From an uncultured Roseburia sp. (GTDB lineage: Bacteria; Bacillota; Clostridia; Lachnospirales; Lachnospiraceae): DNA of 45,811 nt. This document shows, piece by piece, positions 2,593-38,960 of this stretch. The stretch is taken from contig CANRBT010000002.1 in NCBI GenBank assembly GCA_947628935.1, positions 1 through 45,811 on the forward strand, read 5' to 3'. The translations under genes and the position numbers were made by a program. Within the stretch, counting starts at the first letter, position 1; every line of letters starts with the position of its first letter. Under the pieces are notes generated by a model that saw only the letters and a list, made by a program, of their open reading frames with translations, was not told the DNA's origin and did not search any database.

Positions 2593-3765
2593 ATGGAGTC
2601 ATACGAATTTTTGCTGTTTCTTGCCATCATCATGATCTCCACCAAGCTGCTGGGGTTGTTTTCGAGAAGAATACATATGCCTGCGGTGGTGGGAGCGCTG
2701 GTGGCGGGCGTGGTTCTCGGACCGTCCTGTCTGTCGATGATCACTCTGGACGGGGAGACGGGCGTATTTATCGAGCAGATGGCGGAGATCGGTGTCATTC
2801 TTCTTATGTTCAATGCCGGACTTGATACGGATCTGAGTGAGCTTAAGAAAAATGGCGTCGCATCGCTGGTGACGGCGCTGATCGGCGTTATCGTGCCGCT
2901 GGTGGGCGGATTCCTCGCGTATTCTTTGTATTTCCACACGGACTACAGCGATTACGGCGAGGTGCTGAAGGCTGTGTTCGTCGGCGTGGTGCTGACGGCG
3001 ACCTCCGTGAGTATCACTGTGGAGACGCTGCGCGAGATGGGGAAGCTCAAGGGAAAGGTCGGAACGACGATCCTTGGCGCTGCTGTGCTGGATGATATCA
3101 TCGGCATCATCGTGCTGACCATCGTGACGAGCCTGAAAGATACGAGTGTGAGCCCTGTGAGCGTGCTGTTGAAGATCGTGTTGTACTTTATCTTTATCGG
3201 GGCGATCGTGGTCGTGGTGATGAAGCTGCGCGGCTTCTTGGAAAAGCGCGACGGTGAGCGCCGCATCGTCATCATCTGTACGGCGCTCTGCTTTATCCTT
3301 TCTTATATATCGGAGGAGTTCTTCGGGATCGCGGATATCACGGGTGCGTATTTCGCAGGACTGATGCTCTGCTCCCTGAAGATCGAGGAGTATGTGGCAA
3401 GGCGTTGTGAGATCATCTCCTATCTGGTATTCTCGCCTGTGTTTTTCGCGAGCGTCGGCTTAAAGGTCACGCTGGGAGGAATGGATGCGAGCATCTGGAT
3501 CTTCTCGATCGTGCTTCTGGTCGTGGCGATCCTGACGAAGGTGATTGGCTGCGGTCTGGGCTCGAGGGTCTGCGGATGTACGAACAAGGAGGCGCTGCAG
3601 ATCGGTATCGGGATGGTTTCCCGAGGGGAGGTCGCGCTGATCGTGGCGCAGAAGGGCTATGCGAGCGGGATGCTCGACAGCGTGCTGTTTGCGCCGATCG
3701 TCGTCGTCGTGATCGTGACGACGCTGCTCACGCCGATCCTGTTGAAGATGGTGATGAAGGATTAA
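2593..3765 (+). CDS. Cation:proton antiporter (CPA2 / KefB-type)
   Basis: The 390-residue integral membrane protein has about eleven to twelve hydrophobic helices. Family features include an N-terminal IPAVVGALVAGVVLGP-like segment (here MPAVVGALVAGVVLGPS), MAEIGVILLMFNAGLDTD, AAVLDDIIGII with the paired aspartates typical of the ion-binding helix, and SRGEVALIVAQKG late in the protein. It exchanges Na+ or K+ for protons across the cytoplasmic membrane. There is no C-terminal TrkA-N or TrkA-C domain, so it resembles the short NapA/GerN-like members. The start has GGGAGAG upstream. It is monocistronic, with its own terminator at 3794-3817. Confidence 0.92.
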   Translation: MESYEFLLFLAIIMISTKLLGLFSRRIHMPAVVGALVAGVVLGPSCLSMITLDGETGVFIEQMAEIGVILLMFNAGLDTDLSELKKNGVASLVTALIGVIVPLVGGFLAYSLYFHTDYSDYGEVLKAVFVGVVLTATSVSITVETLREMGKLKGKVGTTILGAAVLDDIIGIIVLTIVTSLKDTSVSPVSVLLKIVLYFIFIGAIVVVVMKLRGFLEKRDGERRIVIICTALCFILSYISEEFFGIADITGAYFAGLMLCSLKIEEYVARRCEIISYLVFSPVFFASVGLKVTLGGMDASIWIFSIVLLVVAILTKVIGCGLGSRVCGCTNKEALQIGIGMVSRGEVALIVAQKGYASGMLDSVLFAPIVVVVIVTTLLTPILLKMVMKD

Positions 3766-3793
3766 GGGAAAAAAGAAGTGTTGTAGCAAAGGG

Positions 3794-3817
3794 CAGGCTC
3801 TACGGAGCCTGTTTTTT
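3794..3817 (+). terminator. Intrinsic terminator of the antiporter gene
   Basis: Stem CAGGCTC / GAGCCTG with loop TACG is followed by six T residues. Confidence 0.85.
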
Positions 3818-3913
3818 GTGCGAAAATTTATATTCTGTTCTTTGCTATGGATGTTCGATTATTTTTCGGAAATTCCATATTTTTTAAAATATTAATAATA
3901 TTCAAAAAATTAA

Positions 3914-3942
3914 TTGACAAATAGTTATGGGAGGGGTATGCT
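3914..3942 (+). promoter_or_regulatory. Sigma-A promoter of the secreted protein gene
   Basis: Consensus TTGACA (3914-3919) and TATGCT (3937-3942) are separated by 17 bases. They sit in a locally AT-rich stretch (about 3840-3925) that contrasts with the GC-rich surroundings. The leader to the ATG at 4015 is about 65 bases. Confidence 0.8.
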
Positions 3943-4014
3943 GGTAGACATAAAATGTAATACGTCTGTCGGGGAATAGGATTTGCCGCATAGACAAAGG
4001 AGGAAAAGAATAGT

Positions 4015-5676
4015 ATGAAACGAAAAGGTATCATGTGGCTCATCTTGCTATGCATATTGGTGGGAATGGTTCCGGTAAACATTCTGGCAAGCGGAGCAGG
4101 ACGGGCAGAGAAAAGCGTGTCCGACATCAAGGTTGACTTCCGTGTCGTTTACAAAGGAGAGGTAGTGCCGAATACGCACATCGAAGCGCGTATGGTAACA
4201 GAATCGGATGAGATTGTAAGCGAGTTGGGGAGCAGTGACAATGGAGAGTTGAATGTCACTATAGATAATGAGCAGTGGGGATTTTTAGAGTTTGTTGTTG
4301 ATTTGCCGGAGGGATATGAGTATGGAAATGAAAATACCTTCGTGAGAAAATGGCTAAGGGTAACGGGAGACGGGTTGAGCGAAGGAGGAACAAATTCATA
4401 TGGATATTTTTCGGGTAGTGGTACGTTTAATTGTGAGGTGACAAAGCCGGCAGAAGACGGATATTTAACAGGCAGTTATAGTCAGTTGTATGTGGTGGAA
4501 GGGGATGTTGTCGATGTTTCAGGAGCACTGTTTTCGACATCTGAAGGGGCGTTTTGCCTGTATCAGGTTATGCCGGACGGAACCCGCACCAGAGTCTATG
4601 CGGACAGGATGGGGTTGGTTGAGGACAACGGCGTGCTGGAGTATGATGATGGCGTCATTGCATTAAAGCCTGGGAAGGCAGAAATCTATTTTATGTATAA
4701 GGGTATGAAATACGTTTTGCCGGTCACTGTCTTTTCCAAGGAAGACCAGGAAGCCATGAAGGAAAAAAGCTTGACAGCAAACGTAGATCATATGACTGTC
4801 AAACAGGGTGAAACCTTGGATCTTCGGGGAGCATGGAAGGAAGAATATACGGATTTTCAACTGTTCCTTGTAGACAAGGATGGTACAAGGACAAGAGCCT
4901 ACTGTGACACTGTGTCGCACGGTCCAGGATTCACTGTGACCGGAAATCCGGAGGGATATCTGGAATATACGGCAAAAGAGGCAGGAACGTCTTATTTAAC
5001 GTTCCGGGTGTATTATAATGAGGCTTACAGTTGGAATTTCAGGCTGACGGTTGATGTGATAGAGGCTGACGGCTCAAATACAGAGACGCCGACAGAGATA
5101 CCCGGTGACACGACGACCGCGCCGACAGAAGCGACGGAAACAACAGAAACGCAGAGTACGGCATCTGCATTTTCTCAGGGGGAATTGACATACAAAGCAG
5201 AGGATGGCAGACAGGTCAGGCAGATTGTATCAGCGGAGAATGCGTCTATTACGGTTGCTGGGAATCCCAAAGTTATTCAGACTGGTATGACGCTTAAGGC
5301 GGCGTATACGGTTGGAGGAGATAGCTATGAACGGGCATATACAGCGCTTCAAAAAAGGATCACGGGCTATGAAGGTTTTCGGGTTTATGATATCGACTTG
5401 TGGGATGCAGCCAATCAGCAAATACATCAGCTGGGCGAGTATGTGAATGTGACGATGCCAATACCGGAAGGACTGTCTTTTGGAAACGGCGTTGTGCTTG
5501 CTGTGTACCGTGTGGAGGAGGATGGGTCATTGACTCATTGTCAGTCGGCGGTAAAGAACGGGATGTTGACCTTTGCGACCAATCATTTCAGTACCTATAT
5601 CATTGTGCAAAATGCCGTGGAAACATCGCCGAAGACCGGAGAAGAACAGGGAAGCTTTTTGGGATGGCTGTTTTGA
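4015..5676 (+). CDS. Secreted multi-domain surface protein with remnant sortase motif
   Basis: The 553-residue protein has a signal peptide (basic MKRKG, hydrophobic core to about residue 24, likely cleavage near ILASG). Residues about 37-145 look like a beta-sandwich. Two related modules follow at about 151-240 and 253-350, each with the shared signature DGTRTR-x-Y; both resemble bacterial Ig-like folds. A Thr/Glu/Pro linker spans about 352-385, and a C-terminal domain (387-535) ends in FSTYIIVQ. SPKTGE at 538-543 resembles the LPxTG sorting motif, but only ten residues follow and there is no membrane helix or positive tail. It has a consensus promoter and AAAGGAGGA before the ATG. No homologue is recognised and the function is unknown; adhesion or matrix attachment is only a guess. 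Base composition is more AT-rich than the neighbours, hinting at separate ancestry. Confidence 0.85.
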   Translation: MKRKGIMWLILLCILVGMVPVNILASGAGRAEKSVSDIKVDFRVVYKGEVVPNTHIEARMVTESDEIVSELGSSDNGELNVTIDNEQWGFLEFVVDLPEGYEYGNENTFVRKWLRVTGDGLSEGGTNSYGYFSGSGTFNCEVTKPAEDGYLTGSYSQLYVVEGDVVDVSGALFSTSEGAFCLYQVMPDGTRTRVYADRMGLVEDNGVLEYDDGVIALKPGKAEIYFMYKGMKYVLPVTVFSKEDQEAMKEKSLTANVDHMTVKQGETLDLRGAWKEEYTDFQLFLVDKDGTRTRAYCDTVSHGPGFTVTGNPEGYLEYTAKEAGTSYLTFRVYYNEAYSWNFRLTVDVIEADGSNTETPTEIPGDTTTAPTEATETTETQSTASAFSQGELTYKAEDGRQVRQIVSAENASITVAGNPKVIQTGMTLKAAYTVGGDSYERAYTALQKRITGYEGFRVYDIDLWDAANQQIHQLGEYVNVTMPIPEGLSFGNGVVLAVYRVEEDGSLTHCQSAVKNGMLTFATNHFSTYIIVQNAVETSPKTGEEQGSFLGWLF

Positions 5677-5716
5677 TTGACAGCGGAGATATAAGAGGAG
5701 AGCTGCTCGTTGTGAT

Positions 5717-5752
5717 AGAGCGCGTAGACGAAACGCTACGCGCTCTTTTTTT
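5717..5752 (+). terminator. Strong intrinsic terminator after the secreted protein gene
   Basis: A perfect 11-base-pair stem, AGAGCGCGTAG / CTACGCGCTCT, is followed by seven T residues. It isolates the secreted protein gene from the downstream sigma-factor pair. Confidence 0.92.
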
Positions 5753-5802
5753 GCCTTTTTTGAGATTTGTTATGAATAAATGAAAAAGATATGACAATGT
5801 AT

Positions 5803-5831
5803 CTGTGAAGGGCAAAAGAGCTGCTTCACAG
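5803..5831. repeat. Inverted repeat upstream of the ECF sigma gene
   Basis: CTGTGAAG (5803-5810) and its exact complement CTTCACAG (5824-5831) are separated by 13 bases, just before the ribosome-binding region of the sigma gene. It has no T tail, so it is not a terminator. It could be a protein-binding site or a leader hairpin. Confidence 0.5.
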
Positions 5832-5854
5832 GACGTCCCAGGGGAGAGAACGGC

Positions 5855-6376
5855 ATGACAAAACAAGAGCTTGAACAGTGCATAGAGGAATACGGCAGGG
5901 ATATCTACTCCTTTTGCAGGTATCTGACAAATGATCTTCCGGAGGCGGAAGACCTGTATCAGGACACGTTTCTGCTGGCGACAGAAGTCAAGGAGAGGAT
6001 AGAATATAACCGCAATCCGAAAAGCTATCTCCTTTCGATCGCGCTGCGCATATGGAAGAACAAAAAGAGGAAATATGCATGGCGGAAACGGATCGCGGAT
6101 GTGCGGTCCGCCGATGATGCACTGGAAGCAGACAGCGGAGGAACTGCGGAACTGTCTTTGGAGGAACAGATCCTTGCGACAGAAAAAGATGAGTCTGTAC
6201 GGATCGCGGTCAGTCACCTGCCGGAAAAGCTTAAGATCGTGGTGCTCCTCTTTTATATGGAAGAGCTTACGACGGCGCAGATCGCCGAGGTGATAAAAAT
6301 ACCTGTGGGAACCGTGCTGAGCAGACTGCACGAGGCGCGAAAAAGGTTAAAGAAGGAATTGGAGGATGTTTTATGA
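5855..6376 (+). CDS. ECF-type RNA polymerase sigma factor
   Basis: The 173-residue protein has sigma region 2 (YGRDIYSFCRYLTNDLPEAEDLYQDTFL, about residues 13-41) and region 4 (about 113-168) with LPEKLKIVVLLFYMEELTTAQIA and the helix-turn-helix IPVGTVLSRLHEARKRL. There is no region 1 or 3, as is usual for extracytoplasmic-function sigma factors. It would redirect RNA polymerase to a small regulon. Its stop overlaps the start of the next gene by four bases (ATGA arrangement), so the two are translationally coupled, typical of sigma/anti-sigma pairs. A canonical sigma-A promoter was not found directly upstream, consistent with but not proving autoregulation. Confidence 0.92.
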   Translation: MTKQELEQCIEEYGRDIYSFCRYLTNDLPEAEDLYQDTFLLATEVKERIEYNRNPKSYLLSIALRIWKNKKRKYAWRKRIADVRSADDALEADSGGTAELSLEEQILATEKDESVRIAVSHLPEKLKIVVLLFYMEELTTAQIAEVIKIPVGTVLSRLHEARKRLKKELEDVL

Positions 6377-7605
6377 AGGAAAAAATACTGGATGATGCAC
6401 TGCGTCAGGCGCTTGCTCCGCAGGAGGAAGCCGATGTTTGGCTGAATCAGAGAATCTTAAAGCGGGCAGAGGAGAAAAGGACGGCAGGAGGAAGAAAAAG
6501 CAGGCTGCCAGCGGCCGTTGCTGCGGTATTGCTGCTGTGCGCTGGTTCCGTGACGGCGTATGCCGCATGGAAATATCTGTCGCCCTCTGACGTCGCAGAG
6601 GAGATGCAGGATGCCGAGTTGGCAGAGGTATTTCAGAGCGCGCAGGCGACCGCCGTTTATGAAACGCAGAGCTGTGAAGGTTACCGGGTTACTCTGCTGG
6701 GGGTTGTCTCCGGGGAAGGATTGTCGGAATATCCGCGTTATCAAAACGGCACACTGGCGCAGGACAGGACCTATGCGGTCGTTGCCATTGAAAAGGAAGA
6801 CGGCGCACCGATGCCGGACATCTCAGAGGAGGGATATGGGGAACTGGAATTTTTTGTCTCGCCGCTTATCGCCGGTTACGATCCGGCGCTCTACAACCTC
6901 GCGAGCATGTCCGGGAATTATATGGATATGGTACAGGACGGCGTTTTGTACAGGCTTGTGGAATGTGATACGGTAGAGATATTTGCAGACCACGAGATCT
7001 ATTTATGCGTTACGGAAGGAACGTTCTATCCTGCGGAAGCCTACCGCTATGACAGACTGACGGGAGAGATCGGCAGAAATGAGGACTATGAGGGTCTGAA
7101 CGCTTTATTTGGGCTGCCGATGGATGCGGCGGGGGCGGATCCCCAAAAAGCTGCGGAATATATCGAAAGTCTCGGGCTCGAGACGGATATTCCGGAAGAA
7201 GGATGGGAAGTGGAGACAGACGGAGCGTTTGAGGTGGAGATCACAGAGGGTCATCAAAAGGGAGCGGAAGTCGCAGAGTATGCCCTGCAGTTTGTCGGTA
7301 ATCCGTATTCCTGGGGCAGCGACAGCCTGACGGACGGTACGGACAGCTCCGGCTTTACAAAAAGCGTATATGCGTATTTTGGCATCTGTATTCCGCATGA
7401 TTCGCGCGGACAGCGCGAGGTCGGGACAAAGGTGGATGCCTTAGATAAGGCAATGCCCGGCGATCTGATCTTTTATGAGACACCTGCGCACGTGGCGATC
7501 TACCTGGGAGAGGGAAAGATCGTTCATGCGATGCCGGAACATGGGATCTGTATTTCCGAGGCAGAGTTTGATGATGTTTCAGAGATCAGACGGATCCGGG
7601 ACTAG
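6373..7605 (+). CDS. Putative transmembrane anti-sigma factor with C-terminal NlpC/P60-like domain lacking the catalytic Cys
   Basis: The 410-residue protein has a cytoplasmic N-terminal segment of about 44 residues (ILDDALRQAL...WLNQRILKRAEEK), one membrane helix at about 45-65, and an extracytoplasmic region. Residues about 70-290 form an unassigned domain. Residues about 295-410 are an NlpC/P60 fold, with VAEYALQFVGNPYSWG, TDGTDSSGF, PGDLIFY, PAHVAIYLG and KIVHAMP. NlpC/P60 peptidases use Cys-His-His: both histidines are present (H373, H385), but the cysteine position is Ser325 (codon AGC at 7345-7347). The paralogous domain in the gene at 37554 reads NGTDCSGF, so the change is direct. From membrane topology and coupling to the sigma gene it is probably the cognate anti-sigma factor. 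The wall-binding sensor role is inference. Confidence 0.82.
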   Translation: MKEKILDDALRQALAPQEEADVWLNQRILKRAEEKRTAGGRKSRLPAAVAAVLLLCAGSVTAYAAWKYLSPSDVAEEMQDAELAEVFQSAQATAVYETQSCEGYRVTLLGVVSGEGLSEYPRYQNGTLAQDRTYAVVAIEKEDGAPMPDISEEGYGELEFFVSPLIAGYDPALYNLASMSGNYMDMVQDGVLYRLVECDTVEIFADHEIYLCVTEGTFYPAEAYRYDRLTGEIGRNEDYEGLNALFGLPMDAAGADPQKAAEYIESLGLETDIPEEGWEVETDGAFEVEITEGHQKGAEVAEYALQFVGNPYSWGSDSLTDGTDSSGFTKSVYAYFGICIPHDSRGQREVGTKVDALDKAMPGDLIFYETPAHVAIYLGEGKIVHAMPEHGICISEAEFDDVSEIRRIRD

Positions 7606-7621
7606 GGGACGCTGCTGTATT

Positions 7622-8188
7622 TTATAAAGACCAGATATCCGCGTTCGTCGACGAGACGCTCGTCACGCCCGCCTGCAGCAGCGCCATAATGTCCTCCTTG
7701 TCGGAGACGAGCCCGCCCGCGATGACCGGGATCGGAGAGATCCTGCACACCTTTGCGACGATCTTGGGCATCAGGGCGGGAAGTACTTCGATCAGGTCAG
7801 GGCGCGCGTTCTTCACCTGACGTTCGATGTTCTCGTATGCCATAGAGTCGATGAGGAACAGACGCAGGATCGTGTAGAGCCCCAGCTCCTTGGCGCGCTT
7901 GATGAGCATCGGCTTTGTTGTGATGATGCCGTCCGCCTCAGTGTATTTTTTGAGAAAATCCACGGCGATCTCCTTGGAGCTTAAGCCTGTGATCAGGTCC
8001 AGATGTACCATGGCGAGCCGGCCGGACGATTTCACCGTCGCTACGATGTCTGCAATGTTCACAATGTCCCCATAGAGGATAAAGACGACGCGGCTGTCGC
8101 TGGATAAGCATTGCTTCAGACCGTCGTCATCCTTGATCGCTGCGATGATGGGGGAATCCTCCAGGGCTTCCCGAAATTCTTTTTTCAT
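7622..8188 (-). CDS. glpP: Glycerol uptake operon antiterminator (GlpP family)
   Basis: GlpP-family proteins bind glycerol-3-phosphate and the leader RNA of glp genes, preventing termination and stabilising the message. The 188-residue protein has a TIM-barrel-like pattern: SPIIAAIKDDDGL near the N-terminus, VHLDLITGLSS, ADGIITTKP, RLFLIDS, and a glycine-rich PVIAGGLVSDKEDI with GVTSVSST near the end. The ATG at 8188 has GGAGAAC upstream, so the ten extra upstream codons were not used. It is the last gene of the minus-strand glp operon. The promoter-proximal leader of that operon contains a terminator-like hairpin, a plausible target. Confidence 0.9.
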   Translation of the reverse strand: MKKEFREALEDSPIIAAIKDDDGLKQCLSSDSRVVFILYGDIVNIADIVATVKSSGRLAMVHLDLITGLSSKEIAVDFLKKYTEADGIITTKPMLIKRAKELGLYTILRLFLIDSMAYENIERQVKNARPDLIEVLPALMPKIVAKVCRISPIPVIAGGLVSDKEDIMALLQAGVTSVSSTNADIWSL

Positions 8189-9913: not shown

Positions 9914-11365
9914 CTATATCTCTTTGTTCGTGCCGATGACGATCGCTCCGCCGACACCGTTCTTTGTGATATCATAGATGCTCATGGACGCCTCCCGCTC
10001 CAGGATCTCCATGGTGCGGGGAGAGCAGAAGCCTGCCTGACAGCGCCCCATGCCGGCGCGTGTTCGGCGTTTGACGCCGTCCAGGGAGCGTGCGCCGAGC
10101 GGACGGCGGATCGCATCGATGATCTCGCCCTCCGTGATCATCTCGCAGCGGCAGATGATGTTGCCGTATGCGGGCTGCTCGCGGATCAGCCTGTTGCGCT
10201 CCTCCATGGAAAGCGTCTCCGGACGGAGAATGCCCTTGCGCGTGGAGACGAAGTCGGACTTCTCCGTCAGGGGAAGGAGCTGCGTGACGATTTCCGCGAC
10301 CATCTCGCCGATCGCCGGTGCGGAGGAGAGTCCCGGGGACTCGATCCCGGCGGCGTTGATAAATCCCCTGGCATCCGCGGCTTCCCCGATGACGAAATCG
10401 TCGCTGTCCTCGTGGGCTCTCAGCCCTGCAAAGGAGGTGATGACCTGGCGCATCGGAACATTTTTGACGCTGCGGGAAGCCGTCGCCGTGAGGGAATCCA
10501 GTCCGTCCTGGGTCGTGTTCAGGGATTCCTTGTCCTCGACATCCACGGCAGTCGGACCGACCAGAAGATTTCCGTGGACGGTCGGGGTGACGAGTACGCC
10601 CTTTCCCATTTTGGAGGGAAGCTGGAAGATGGTGTGCGATACATGTGTTCCGGCATCCTTATCCAACAGGCAATACTCTCCCTTTCTGGCTGTGATGTGG
10701 AGCTTGTGGCTGCTCACCATATTGTTGAAGGTGTCGGCATAGACGCCGGCGGCGTTGACGACGATTTTTGCCTCGAATGTCTCCGCTTCCTTTGTGTCGG
10801 TATGTACCGTCCGGAGCGCATAGCCGTCCGCCGTCTTTGCGATGGATTCGACGCATGTGTTCAGGAAGAAAGATACGCCGTTCGTGTATGCGTTTTCCGC
10901 AAACGCCATCGTCATGTGAAAGGGGCATACAATGCCGCCGGTCGGTGCATAGAGCGCGCAGACGGCGTCGTCGCTGATGTTCGGCTCCATCGAAAGCAGC
11001 TCCCCGCGTTCGATGATCCGGAGATCCGGGACGCCGTTCTTTTTCCCTTTTTCCAGGAGCGTCTCAAGCCCCGCGGGATCCTGCTCCTTTGTGCAGACGA
11101 CCAGGGAGCCGTTGCGCTGGAACGGAATGTCCAGATCCTTTGCGAGCTGATCCATCATCGCGTTGCCGCGGACGTTCAGGCGCGCCTTAAGGGAGCCGCA
11201 TGCCGCGTCGAAGCCGGCGTGGATGATGGCGCTGTTTGCCTTGGAGGTTCCGCTGCATACATCCTCTTCGCGCTCGATGACGCAGATGCTTGCCTGGTAT
11301 TTGGATAATTCTCTTGCTATCGCGCTGCCGACGACCCCGGCGCCGATGATCGCTACATCATACAT
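9914..11365 (-). CDS. FAD-dependent glycerol-3-phosphate dehydrogenase, GlpA-like with BFD [2Fe-2S] domain
   Basis: The 483-residue protein opens with the FAD-binding DVAIIGAGVVGSAIARELSKY. It continues as a DAO-type flavoprotein (AGLRAHEDSDDFVIGE, ESPGLSSAPAIGE) and ends with a BFD-like domain whose cysteines read IICRCEM and then GRCQAGFCSP, as in the bacterioferritin-associated [2Fe-2S] fold of GlpA. It oxidises glycerol-3-phosphate, or a close 2-hydroxy substrate, to dihydroxyacetone phosphate. It is the first gene of the operon, preceded by AAAGGAGATGG and a 5' leader of about 120 bases. The GlpP gene at the end of the operon supports the glycerol-3-phosphate assignment over L-2-hydroxyglutarate oxidase. 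Confidence 0.9.
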   Translation of the reverse strand: MYDVAIIGAGVVGSAIARELSKYQASICVIEREEDVCSGTSKANSAIIHAGFDAACGSLKARLNVRGNAMMDQLAKDLDIPFQRNGSLVVCTKEQDPAGLETLLEKGKKNGVPDLRIIERGELLSMEPNISDDAVCALYAPTGGIVCPFHMTMAFAENAYTNGVSFFLNTCVESIAKTADGYALRTVHTDTKEAETFEAKIVVNAAGVYADTFNNMVSSHKLHITARKGEYCLLDKDAGTHVSHTIFQLPSKMGKGVLVTPTVHGNLLVGPTAVDVEDKESLNTTQDGLDSLTATASRSVKNVPMRQVITSFAGLRAHEDSDDFVIGEAADARGFINAAGIESPGLSSAPAIGEMVAEIVTQLLPLTEKSDFVSTRKGILRPETLSMEERNRLIREQPAYGNIICRCEMITEGEIIDAIRRPLGARSLDGVKRRTRAGMGRCQAGFCSPRTMEILEREASMSIYDITKNGVGGAIVIGTNKEI

Positions 11366-37553: not shown

Positions 37554-38960
37554 ATGAACAGAAGAGTATGGAGGGTGACAGGAGCATTATTGGCAGGAGT
37601 ACTGATGATGGGGGATCCTGCAGTCAGTATATATGCAACGCCGTATGCGGGGATTTCCGCGATGACGGTACCGCAGTCCAATACGGTCAAGGGAGGTCCT
37701 GCGGCGGGTGTTTCCCTTGCCGTTTCGGATTATCTGGCGAGCAACAGCACATCGGCGGCGCAGGTGAGTGAGAATCACGCACCGGTCGTTTTGGCGGAGG
37801 AGAATGCAGTGCCTGCCGCGACGGAGGAGAATGCAGCGCCTGCCGCGACGGAGGAGAATGTACCTCCCGTGGCTGTGGATGAGAGTATTTTAGAGGCAGG
37901 TACTGTGACGACGGAGGCGGGGCAGGACGCGCAGACGGAGCAGGTGATTACCGGAGAAACGCTCGACCAGACCGTGACGGCGGATCAGGTCGTACCGGTT
38001 CAGCCGGCGGAGCAGCCTGTGTCCGAGTATGCGGATATCGCGATCGCGCAGGTGGACAACTATGTCAATGTCCGCTCGGAGCCGAGCACGGAAAGCGAGG
38101 TGCTCGGAAAGCTGTATAACAATTCCGCGGCAAAGATTTTAGAGACGACGGCGGACGGATGGTATCGCATCACCTCCGGAAGCGTGGATGGCTATGTGAA
38201 GTGCGAGTATGTGGTGGCAGGCGATGAGGAGCTGGCGCGTTCGGTCAGCACGCGTTATGCGAAGGTGACGACCACGACGCTCTTTGTGCGGACAGAGCCG
38301 TCTACGGATGCGAGCGTTCTGGGAATGGTTCCTCTTGGGGATGATCTTGTTGTGCTCGATGAGTCTACGCCGGGCTGGGCAAAGGTCACGGTAGAGGAAG
38401 GAGAGGGCTATGTGTCTACGGACTACGTCACGCTGACGACCGAGTTCGTGCAGGCGGAGTCCAAGGCAGAGGAGGAAGCGAGACTGGCAAAGGAGGAAGC
38501 GGAGCGCCAGGCAGCGGCGGCGGCAGCGGCGGCGGCGAGGAAAAAAGACGCAGCGGCGCAGTCCTCCGGTGACAGCGGGTCCCAGGAGGCGCAGCAGTCC
38601 TATGCGGCGCCGGCAAGCTCCAACGGACAGGCGGTCGCAAATTACGCATGCCAGTTTGTAGGAAATCCATATGTATATGGCGGTTCCAGTCTGACGAACG
38701 GCACGGACTGCTCCGGTTTTGTCATGAGTGTGTATGCGGCATTTGGGATCGGTCTTCCGCATTCGTCCAGCGCATTGCGCGGATGCGGTTATGAGGTCAG
38801 TCTCTCTTCCGCGCAGCCGGGAGACATTGTATGCTACAGCGGTCATGTTGGGATCTATATCGGCAATGGAACGATCGTGCATGCAAGTACTCCGTCCAGC
38901 GGCATTACCTATTCGAGCGTAAATTATCGCAGCCCGATCTGTGTGAGAAGAATTTTCTAA
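37554..38960 (+). CDS. Secreted SH3b-NlpC/P60 peptidoglycan hydrolase
   Basis: The 468-residue protein has a signal peptide (to about residue 28), a low-complexity region with nine-residue repeats (82-105), two bacterial SH3 domains (about 162-222 with DNYVNVRSEPSTES and 235-293 with TTLFVRTEPSTDAS), a Lys/Glu/Ala-rich linker (299-360), and a C-terminal NlpC/P60 domain (360-468) with an intact triad: Cys386 in NGTDCSGF, His431 in SGHVGIY and His443 in IVHASTP. It probably cleaves D-Glu-diaminopimelate bonds in stem peptides. CTGGAGGAG precedes the ATG. Its NlpC domain is a close relative of the one in the putative anti-sigma factor at 6373. Confidence 0.95.
   Translation: MNRRVWRVTGALLAGVLMMGDPAVSIYATPYAGISAMTVPQSNTVKGGPAAGVSLAVSDYLASNSTSAAQVSENHAPVVLAEENAVPAATEENAAPAATEENVPPVAVDESILEAGTVTTEAGQDAQTEQVITGETLDQTVTADQVVPVQPAEQPVSEYADIAIAQVDNYVNVRSEPSTESEVLGKLYNNSAAKILETTADGWYRITSGSVDGYVKCEYVVAGDEELARSVSTRYAKVTTTTLFVRTEPSTDASVLGMVPLGDDLVVLDESTPGWAKVTVEEGEGYVSTDYVTLTTEFVQAESKAEEEARLAKEEAERQAAAAAAAAARKKDAAAQSSGDSGSQEAQQSYAAPASSNGQAVANYACQFVGNPYVYGGSSLTNGTDCSGFVMSVYAAFGIGLPHSSSALRGCGYEVSLSSAQPGDIVCYSGHVGIYIGNGTIVHASTPSSGITYSSVNYRSPICVRRIF
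37797..37859 (+). repeat. 27-base tandem repeat inside the SH3-NlpC gene
   Basis: Two full copies (37797-37823, 37824-37850) and nine bases of a third, encoding EENA(V/A)PAAT. Only one base differs between the two full copies. It is in frame, so copy-number change would alter linker length only. Confidence 0.85.

Follow-up and report, generated by a model that had tools for sequence, protein, structure and literature searches.

The locus analysed here raises the question of what a peptidoglycan-peptidase fold is doing at the C-terminus of a putative anti-sigma factor when serine occupies its nucleophile position. The window, by which we mean the whole stretch of 45,811 nucleotides from an uncultured Roseburia sp., contains an ECF sigma factor gene and, overlapping its end by 4 bases (the ORFs span 5855-6376 and 6373-7605), the gene for the protein in question. 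Because most relatives of the same layout share the serine, we regard this protein as probably a wall-fragment sensor and not the outcome of a random mutation. The relevant features are:

5773..5801, + strand: TGAAY-N16-ACMATRTA, a putative promoter element for autoregulation, upstream of the sigma gene
5855..6376, + strand: ECF sigma factor, 173 aa, with Sigma70_r2 and r4_2 (Pfam) and TIGR02937 sigma70-ECF above cut-off
6373..7605, + strand: DUF4179-like anti-sigma factor with a C-terminal NlpC/P60 domain, 410 aa (Pfam; AlphaFold model)
6373..6504, + strand: cytoplasmic N-terminal segment, residues 1-44, with putative sigma-binding helices (two helices in the model)
6505..6564, + strand: predicted membrane helix (residues about 45-64) ending in an AXA-like signal-peptidase site, A62-Y63-A64 (hydropathy windows within 42-67)
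6583..6633, + strand: two short predicted post-membrane helices, residues 71-77 and 81-87 (models)
6649..7122, + strand: extracellular beta domain, residues 93-250
7255..7602, + strand: NlpC/P60 domain, residues 295-410
7345..7347, + strand: Ser325 codon AGC, nucleophile position, context DGTDSSGF
7489..7491, + strand: His373, catalytic histidine position, kept in 16/16 fused proteins
7525..7527, + strand: His385, third catalytic position, kept in 16/16 fused proteins
7549..7551, + strand: Cys393, present in 15/16 fused proteins and 1/37 hydrolase domains
37554..38960, + strand: P0002, SH3-NlpC/P60 hydrolase with catalytic Cys386, a comparator outside the system

In the AlphaFold model of the 410-residue protein (mean pLDDT 88.7), two N-terminal helices are followed by one membrane helix, the beta domain, a linker and the NlpC/P60 domain. 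The single membrane helix had been proposed in an earlier, sequence-only reading of the locus, and both hydropathy and the model agree with it. The pattern LD..L..AL.P..E..LN within residues 1-44 recurs among the fused proteins, and [AVG]-x-[AG] occupies residues 62-64 in 16/16 of them. The top structural match of the beta domain is PDB 3FBQ, at 13% identity over the aligned part; this is the extracellular domain of BAS1627, a Bacillus anthracis ECF anti-sigma factor (DUF4179) with no NlpC/P60 domain reported. Pfam returned no DUF4179 match at E<=1 in the window anti-sigma factor (the gathering score is not reached). Among relatives, sub-threshold DUF4179 matches were found in 7/10 (12.2-19.4 bits against a cut-off of 30.1) and, at E<=1, in 31/79 rows (best 6.4e-6); 24 of the 79 rows consist of the NlpC domain alone. 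Set apart from its NlpC/P60 part, the protein resembles, in sequence and predicted structure, the DUF4179 (RsiV-like) anti-sigma factors: a transmembrane segment is predicted that carries an AXA-like site and is followed by two short helices, an ECF sigma gene is adjacent, and the extracellular fold is 3FBQ-like.

The excerpted text of PMC6066255 describes ligand-gated signal-peptidase cleavage of RsiV, whose transmembrane segment has a signal-peptidase site and is followed by two short helices, and describes the two short helices of 3FBQ as in RsiV; that RsiV binds lysozyme is stated in the excerpt of PMC5014341. As far as these excerpts go, RsiV of Bacillus subtilis and the window protein are alike in having an ECF partner, a transmembrane segment with a (here predicted) signal-peptidase site, the two helices and an outer module that binds, or in our case may bind, a ligand. 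The modules themselves differ, RsiV having DUF4163/DUF3298, whereas the outer part of the window protein consists of the beta domain and NlpC/P60; no Pfam match to the lysozyme-binding DUF4163/DUF3298 domain was found in it at E<=1. A sigma match accompanies 15/16 fused loci (partial at L093), and the sixteenth, L090, begins at a contig end; the 13 other full-length sigma matches are 59-71% identical to the window sigma factor. These matches support the anti-sigma layout beside an ECF gene, on which the sequence-only reading had relied.

The distribution of the fusion was followed outward from the host genus. A full-protein search of mostly same-genus genomes first returned relatives matching residues 1 to about 270-300 only, these non-fused proteins having a different C-terminus after the shared N-terminal part. 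The N-terminal part was matched in 24 of 62 genomes of the own genus, at 25 places in total, and when all 25 were read an NlpC/P60 C-terminus was found in the window gene only. Matches were present in 36 of 397 family genomes, the own genome included; the 29 that were read as loci yielded one NlpC fusion, L056 in G428, with Ser, while the stretches fetched for the six remaining matches contained no NlpC match, and a weak match in G187 gave no hit upon re-reading. With the L056 protein as query, the full fusion was found in 15 of the 138 genomes of the genus of G428, G428 included, and NlpC in none of the remaining N-terminal matches there (that of G107 was read as L078). The same 15 genomes were recovered among 395 relatives of G428, and 392 genomes of the order gave a full-length match in four, all already among the known fusions; of the other order-level matches listed, ten were read and a few had been encountered already, those of G674, G747 and G816 being assessed from the range of the match. 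In all, 16 fusions were found, the window protein and one from each of these 15 genomes of another genus. The other fused proteins are 52-65% identical to the window protein, their matches are free of internal stops, and the closest, L088 (65%) and L112 (64%), both belong to the other genus. A scan of genome contigs added a single non-fused relative, in a Roseburia MAG, and plasmid records searched with residues 1-286 gave no match. From this exchangeable C-terminus it would seem that DUF4179-like anti-sigma factors acquire new senses through swaps of the outer domain. A distant anti-sigma relative, L084 (G455, minus strand), has a C-terminal part of about 400 residues unlike the others and is possibly another such outer-module swap.

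That the C-terminal part of the window protein is an NlpC/P60 domain, as had been proposed, was upheld by the Pfam NLPC_P60 match (residues 309-396, E 2.8e-19), and re-reading of codon and residues confirmed serine at the nucleophile position with H373 and H385 retained. Profile, fold and both histidines are thus those of the NlpC/P60 family, and the catalytic Cys nucleophile is absent. Residue 325 is Ser in 12 of the 16 fused proteins and Cys in four (L087, L089, L094 and L095), no other residue occurring there, and D324, S326, G327, F328, H342, G363, D364, H373 and H385 are invariant in 16/16. Cys is found in 37/37 non-fused NlpC domains, a biased sample made up of P0002 and 36 loci picked by similarity. 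Set against this, Ser in 12/16 fusions goes beyond chance. The sequence-only reading had suggested a conserved pseudo-enzyme, with Cys in sister-strain orthologues as evidence against it; Ser does recur in 12/16 orthologues, but Cys in 4/16 counts in part against the proposal, and the pseudo-enzyme condition is not universal among the fusions. Similarly, its single-base route from TGC to AGC suits the window gene, though not the family as a whole: the Ser325 codons are AGY in ten proteins and TCY in two (L092 and L093), those of the 11 other Ser-type genomes including AGT, TCC and TCT besides AGC. P0002 does have NGTDCSGF, with Cys386, where the window protein has DGTDSSGF, but it is not the closest relative of the window NlpC/P60 domain, its identity being 51% compared with up to 75% for other anti-sigma fusions. 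We also rejected recent duplication of the hydrolase domain present in the window as the source of the module, because the fused NlpC domain groups with L159 (below) and with the remaining fused domains, a group to which P0002 does not belong; P0002 falls by tree position with the window's own genus. Cys393, which judged by strand register may lie beside His385, occurs among the 37 hydrolase domains in L159 alone, a sister protein.

When residue 325 was masked, a tree of the NlpC domains placed the fused ones and L159 in one group (support 99/98). L159 (G579, contig C11, 331-1020) is a small membrane-anchored NlpC/P60 protein with an intact Cys and, of the non-fused proteins, the one nearest to the sensor domain. 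Because the fused domains group with this Cys protein, Cys is probably ancestral at residue 325, and L159 possibly represents the donor type of the sensor domain; its host genome also carries a Ser-type fusion. A single clade of the 12 Ser rows was rejected on the NlpC tree (AU p 0.022), at least six changes being needed. A second, combined tree was built from joined sigma and anti-sigma rows of 16 systems (the sigma part is missing for L090 and incomplete for L093); it rejected a separation of the 4 Cys rows from the 12 Ser rows (AU p 0.0011) and gave a minimum of four Cys/Ser changes (3-4 in bootstraps), with many branches weak, and on it the Ser/Cys label clustered no more than in shuffles. 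A test in which L056 was left out of the Ser rows, giving 11 against 5 (p 1.5e-5), was set aside, because it parts L056 from a supported partner, and the 4-versus-12 split was used instead. The partner of L056 varies with the tree: L159 in the NlpC tree, L090 in the combined tree and, in that of the N-terminal parts, 11 rows of non-fused proteins. A single origin of the fusion, with all 16 as one clade, was not rejected (p 0.234, NlpC tree). The interleaving of Ser and Cys on the trees, together with the two Ser codon classes, indicates repeated Cys/Ser exchange: serine may have originated on many occasions, or may have given way again to Cys, perhaps via gene conversion from Cys paralogues. 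Since the two residues are inseparable on the tree, a conserved function must work with either, and a function that tolerates Cys or Ser fits binding better than turnover.

The model that we favour, with somewhat better than even confidence, is that of an ECF pair with a modular anti-sigma factor, in which the outer NlpC/P60 module binds a peptide, cleaving it scarcely if at all, and thereby gates destruction of the protein by signal peptidase. An NlpC/P60 domain would have taken the place of the outer module at the C-terminus of a DUF4179-like anti-sigma factor, while the N-terminus would hold the sigma factor and the two short helices would shield the AXA-like site outside the membrane, as in RsiV. 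With the cleft kept and Ser in place of Cys, the most likely ligand of the domain is a stem peptide of peptidoglycan, or a muropeptide, which it would cleave little or not at all, catalysis presumably having been lost in the Ser325 form. Occupancy by the ligand would be relayed via the beta domain, exposing the AXA site, whereupon signal peptidase and then site-2 protease would destroy the anti-sigma factor and free the sigma factor, the presence of ligand thus switching the response on. Beyond the domain anatomy, we infer these steps from RsiV and RipD.

The restriction of residue 325 to Ser or Cys also leaves room for a slow or acylated serine. Ser325 has a fairly small chance of being a working or acyl-trapping nucleophile: a slow reaction with the peptide, through a long-lived acyl-ester or slow turnover, would make sensing covalent, as in BlaR1-type sensors, or self-resetting. 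The Cys/Ser restriction holds in 16/16, as does retention of the two His and of the Asp and Ser on either side of residue 325, and from TGY only 2/7 of single-base missense changes lead to Ser, so that the four changes of the combined tree, if free and all from Cys, would do so with a rough probability of (2/7)^4, or about 0.007. The hydroxyl may, however, be kept for hydrogen bonding of the ligand alone, and a Cys-to-Ser change usually abolishes papain-fold activity. A further version of covalent sensing, which we think quite unlikely, is that a wall peptidase became a covalent receptor several times over, by a BlaR1-like logic on an NlpC/P60 fold, with the catalytic site retained entire, Ser325 acylated by stem peptides and the long-held acyl-enzyme triggering signal-peptidase cleavage; wall turnover products, not antibiotics, would then be sensed, and the Cys-type proteins would be the fast-resetting version. 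Alternatively, the NlpC domain could be a passive wall anchor that tethers the anti-sigma factor to peptidoglycan, with wall strain or detachment instead of a soluble ligand triggering cleavage. Its position at the C-terminus, beyond a linker in the model, would suit an anchor, as would the binding of peptidoglycan by RipD, an inactive NlpC protein, in the excerpt of PMC12067865, but the whole cleft is conserved, both His included, a feature that agrees no less well with specific recognition of a peptide, and we consider the anchor unlikely.

Two explanations would deprive Ser325 of any function. There is a slim chance that the NlpC domain is a decaying passenger that has lost catalysis and is drifting; the repeated Cys/Ser exchange and the absence of the usual catalytic residue from 12/16 proteins, in which it is evidently not required, point that way, whereas the invariance of nine catalytic-site positions in 16/16 at 52-65% identity to the window protein, the absence of stops within the matches of the other 15 and the occurrence of only Cys or Ser at residue 325 argue against decay. 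The alternative that Ser325 reflects an error in sequencing or assembly, or a mutation confined to one strain, gains from the draft state of the genome, which is fragmented into 223 contigs and 81.91% complete; against it, the same architecture with Ser is present in 11 other genomes, where the codons AGT, TCC and TCT occur in addition to AGC, and the gene downstream is that of the host genus. The recurrence of Ser in orthologues makes such an error very unlikely, almost to the point of dismissal, and for the family a sequencing error or private mutation was rejected.

RipD of Mycobacterium tuberculosis is presented, in the excerpted text of PMC12067865, as a non-catalytic NlpC/P60 protein with the triad Ala-Ser-Glu, and that text mentions no sigma link. 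The window protein differs in that Cys alone is changed (to Ser) and both His are kept, so that the joint replacement of Cys and His is not seen, and in that it pairs with an ECF sigma factor. For the RsgI anti-sigma-I factors of Clostridium thermocellum, the excerpt of PMC6056542 describes extracytoplasmic sensory module(s) and an autoregulated sigma operon. Those factors work with sigma-I in a polysaccharide setting, whereas the window system has an ECF sigma factor and a peptidoglycan-peptidase fold. Glycoside hydrolases were reportedly named as sensor components by Bahari in 2011. Judging from the excerpts, non-catalytic peptidoglycan-binding NlpC proteins, and anti-sigma factors that bind a wall-related ligand or bear outer sensors, are known already; their combination, with Ser and Cys versions in one family, appears to be new, as no anti-sigma/NlpC fusion with natural Ser and Cys versions was found in the open-licence literature searched, where the search phrase 'NlpC P60' misses the spelling with a slash. 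If the peptide-binding model is correct, the protein would be a one-protein peptidoglycan-fragment receptor wired directly to transcription, made from an enzyme through a one-residue swap that recurs in relatives. The natural Ser-type and Cys-type members of the family offer a comparison of receptor and enzyme states.

The genomic setting bears on how the window genome came by the operon. At 3766-7621, about 3.9 kb containing a wall protein, the sigma factor and the anti-sigma factor lie between a Na/H exchanger and a G3P antiterminator; in G072 (L179), a genus relative, these two neighbours stand about 30 bases apart, leaving an empty site, and no sigma or anti-sigma match was found in five genus-relative stretches (L179-L183, of which L183 ends inside the antiterminator). 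Because the neighbours are joined in G072 and the fused protein is closest to those of another genus, the operon looks horizontally acquired, the alternative to insertion being repeated loss in relatives. Misbinning of the contig was considered and found unsupported, since the FAD oxidoreductase downstream (9914-11365) is of the own-genus type, 85% identical to its match in G072; in a comparison of 16 genomes, ten of which matched, the own genome included, three of the seven donor-type genomes had a match, at <=66% identity.

The sequence-only reading had also envisaged a wall-stress regulon. A block at 5773-5854 is conserved upstream of many relatives, fused or not, and consists of a promoter-like element, GTGAAGG and often a palindrome; GTGAAGG stands near the likely transcript start, and a palindrome like AAGACGTCTT often precedes the ribosome site. 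The promoter pattern was drawn from the upstream regions of the window and of fused and non-fused relatives, and its match at 5773..5801 is by construction because the window was in the source alignment. The own genome contains one exact occurrence of the pattern and likewise one of a backward-read control. Extended by the downstream GTGAAGG and allowing up to 3 mismatches, it occurs at three places against none for the control, a weak test in that the alignment held the window and the downstream part may lie outside the promoter. These places are the window operon, a second sigma operon (C70, 3 mismatches) and C23; with two of the three before sigma operons, a wall-stress regulon is unsupported. 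The second sigma/anti-sigma pair is non-fused (L169, 647-2339 of C70). An Rfam search of 3700-7700 gave 0 matches, and the 5' leader folds no better than shuffles (z -0.31).

Directly upstream of the sigma operon lies the gene for the protein encoded at 4015-5676, in which a Pfam search gave no match at E<=0.001. Its C-terminal end, SPKTGEEQGSFLGWLF, resembles what we take to be a shortened sortase signal, and a partial relative of it stands at the same place in G065 (L181).
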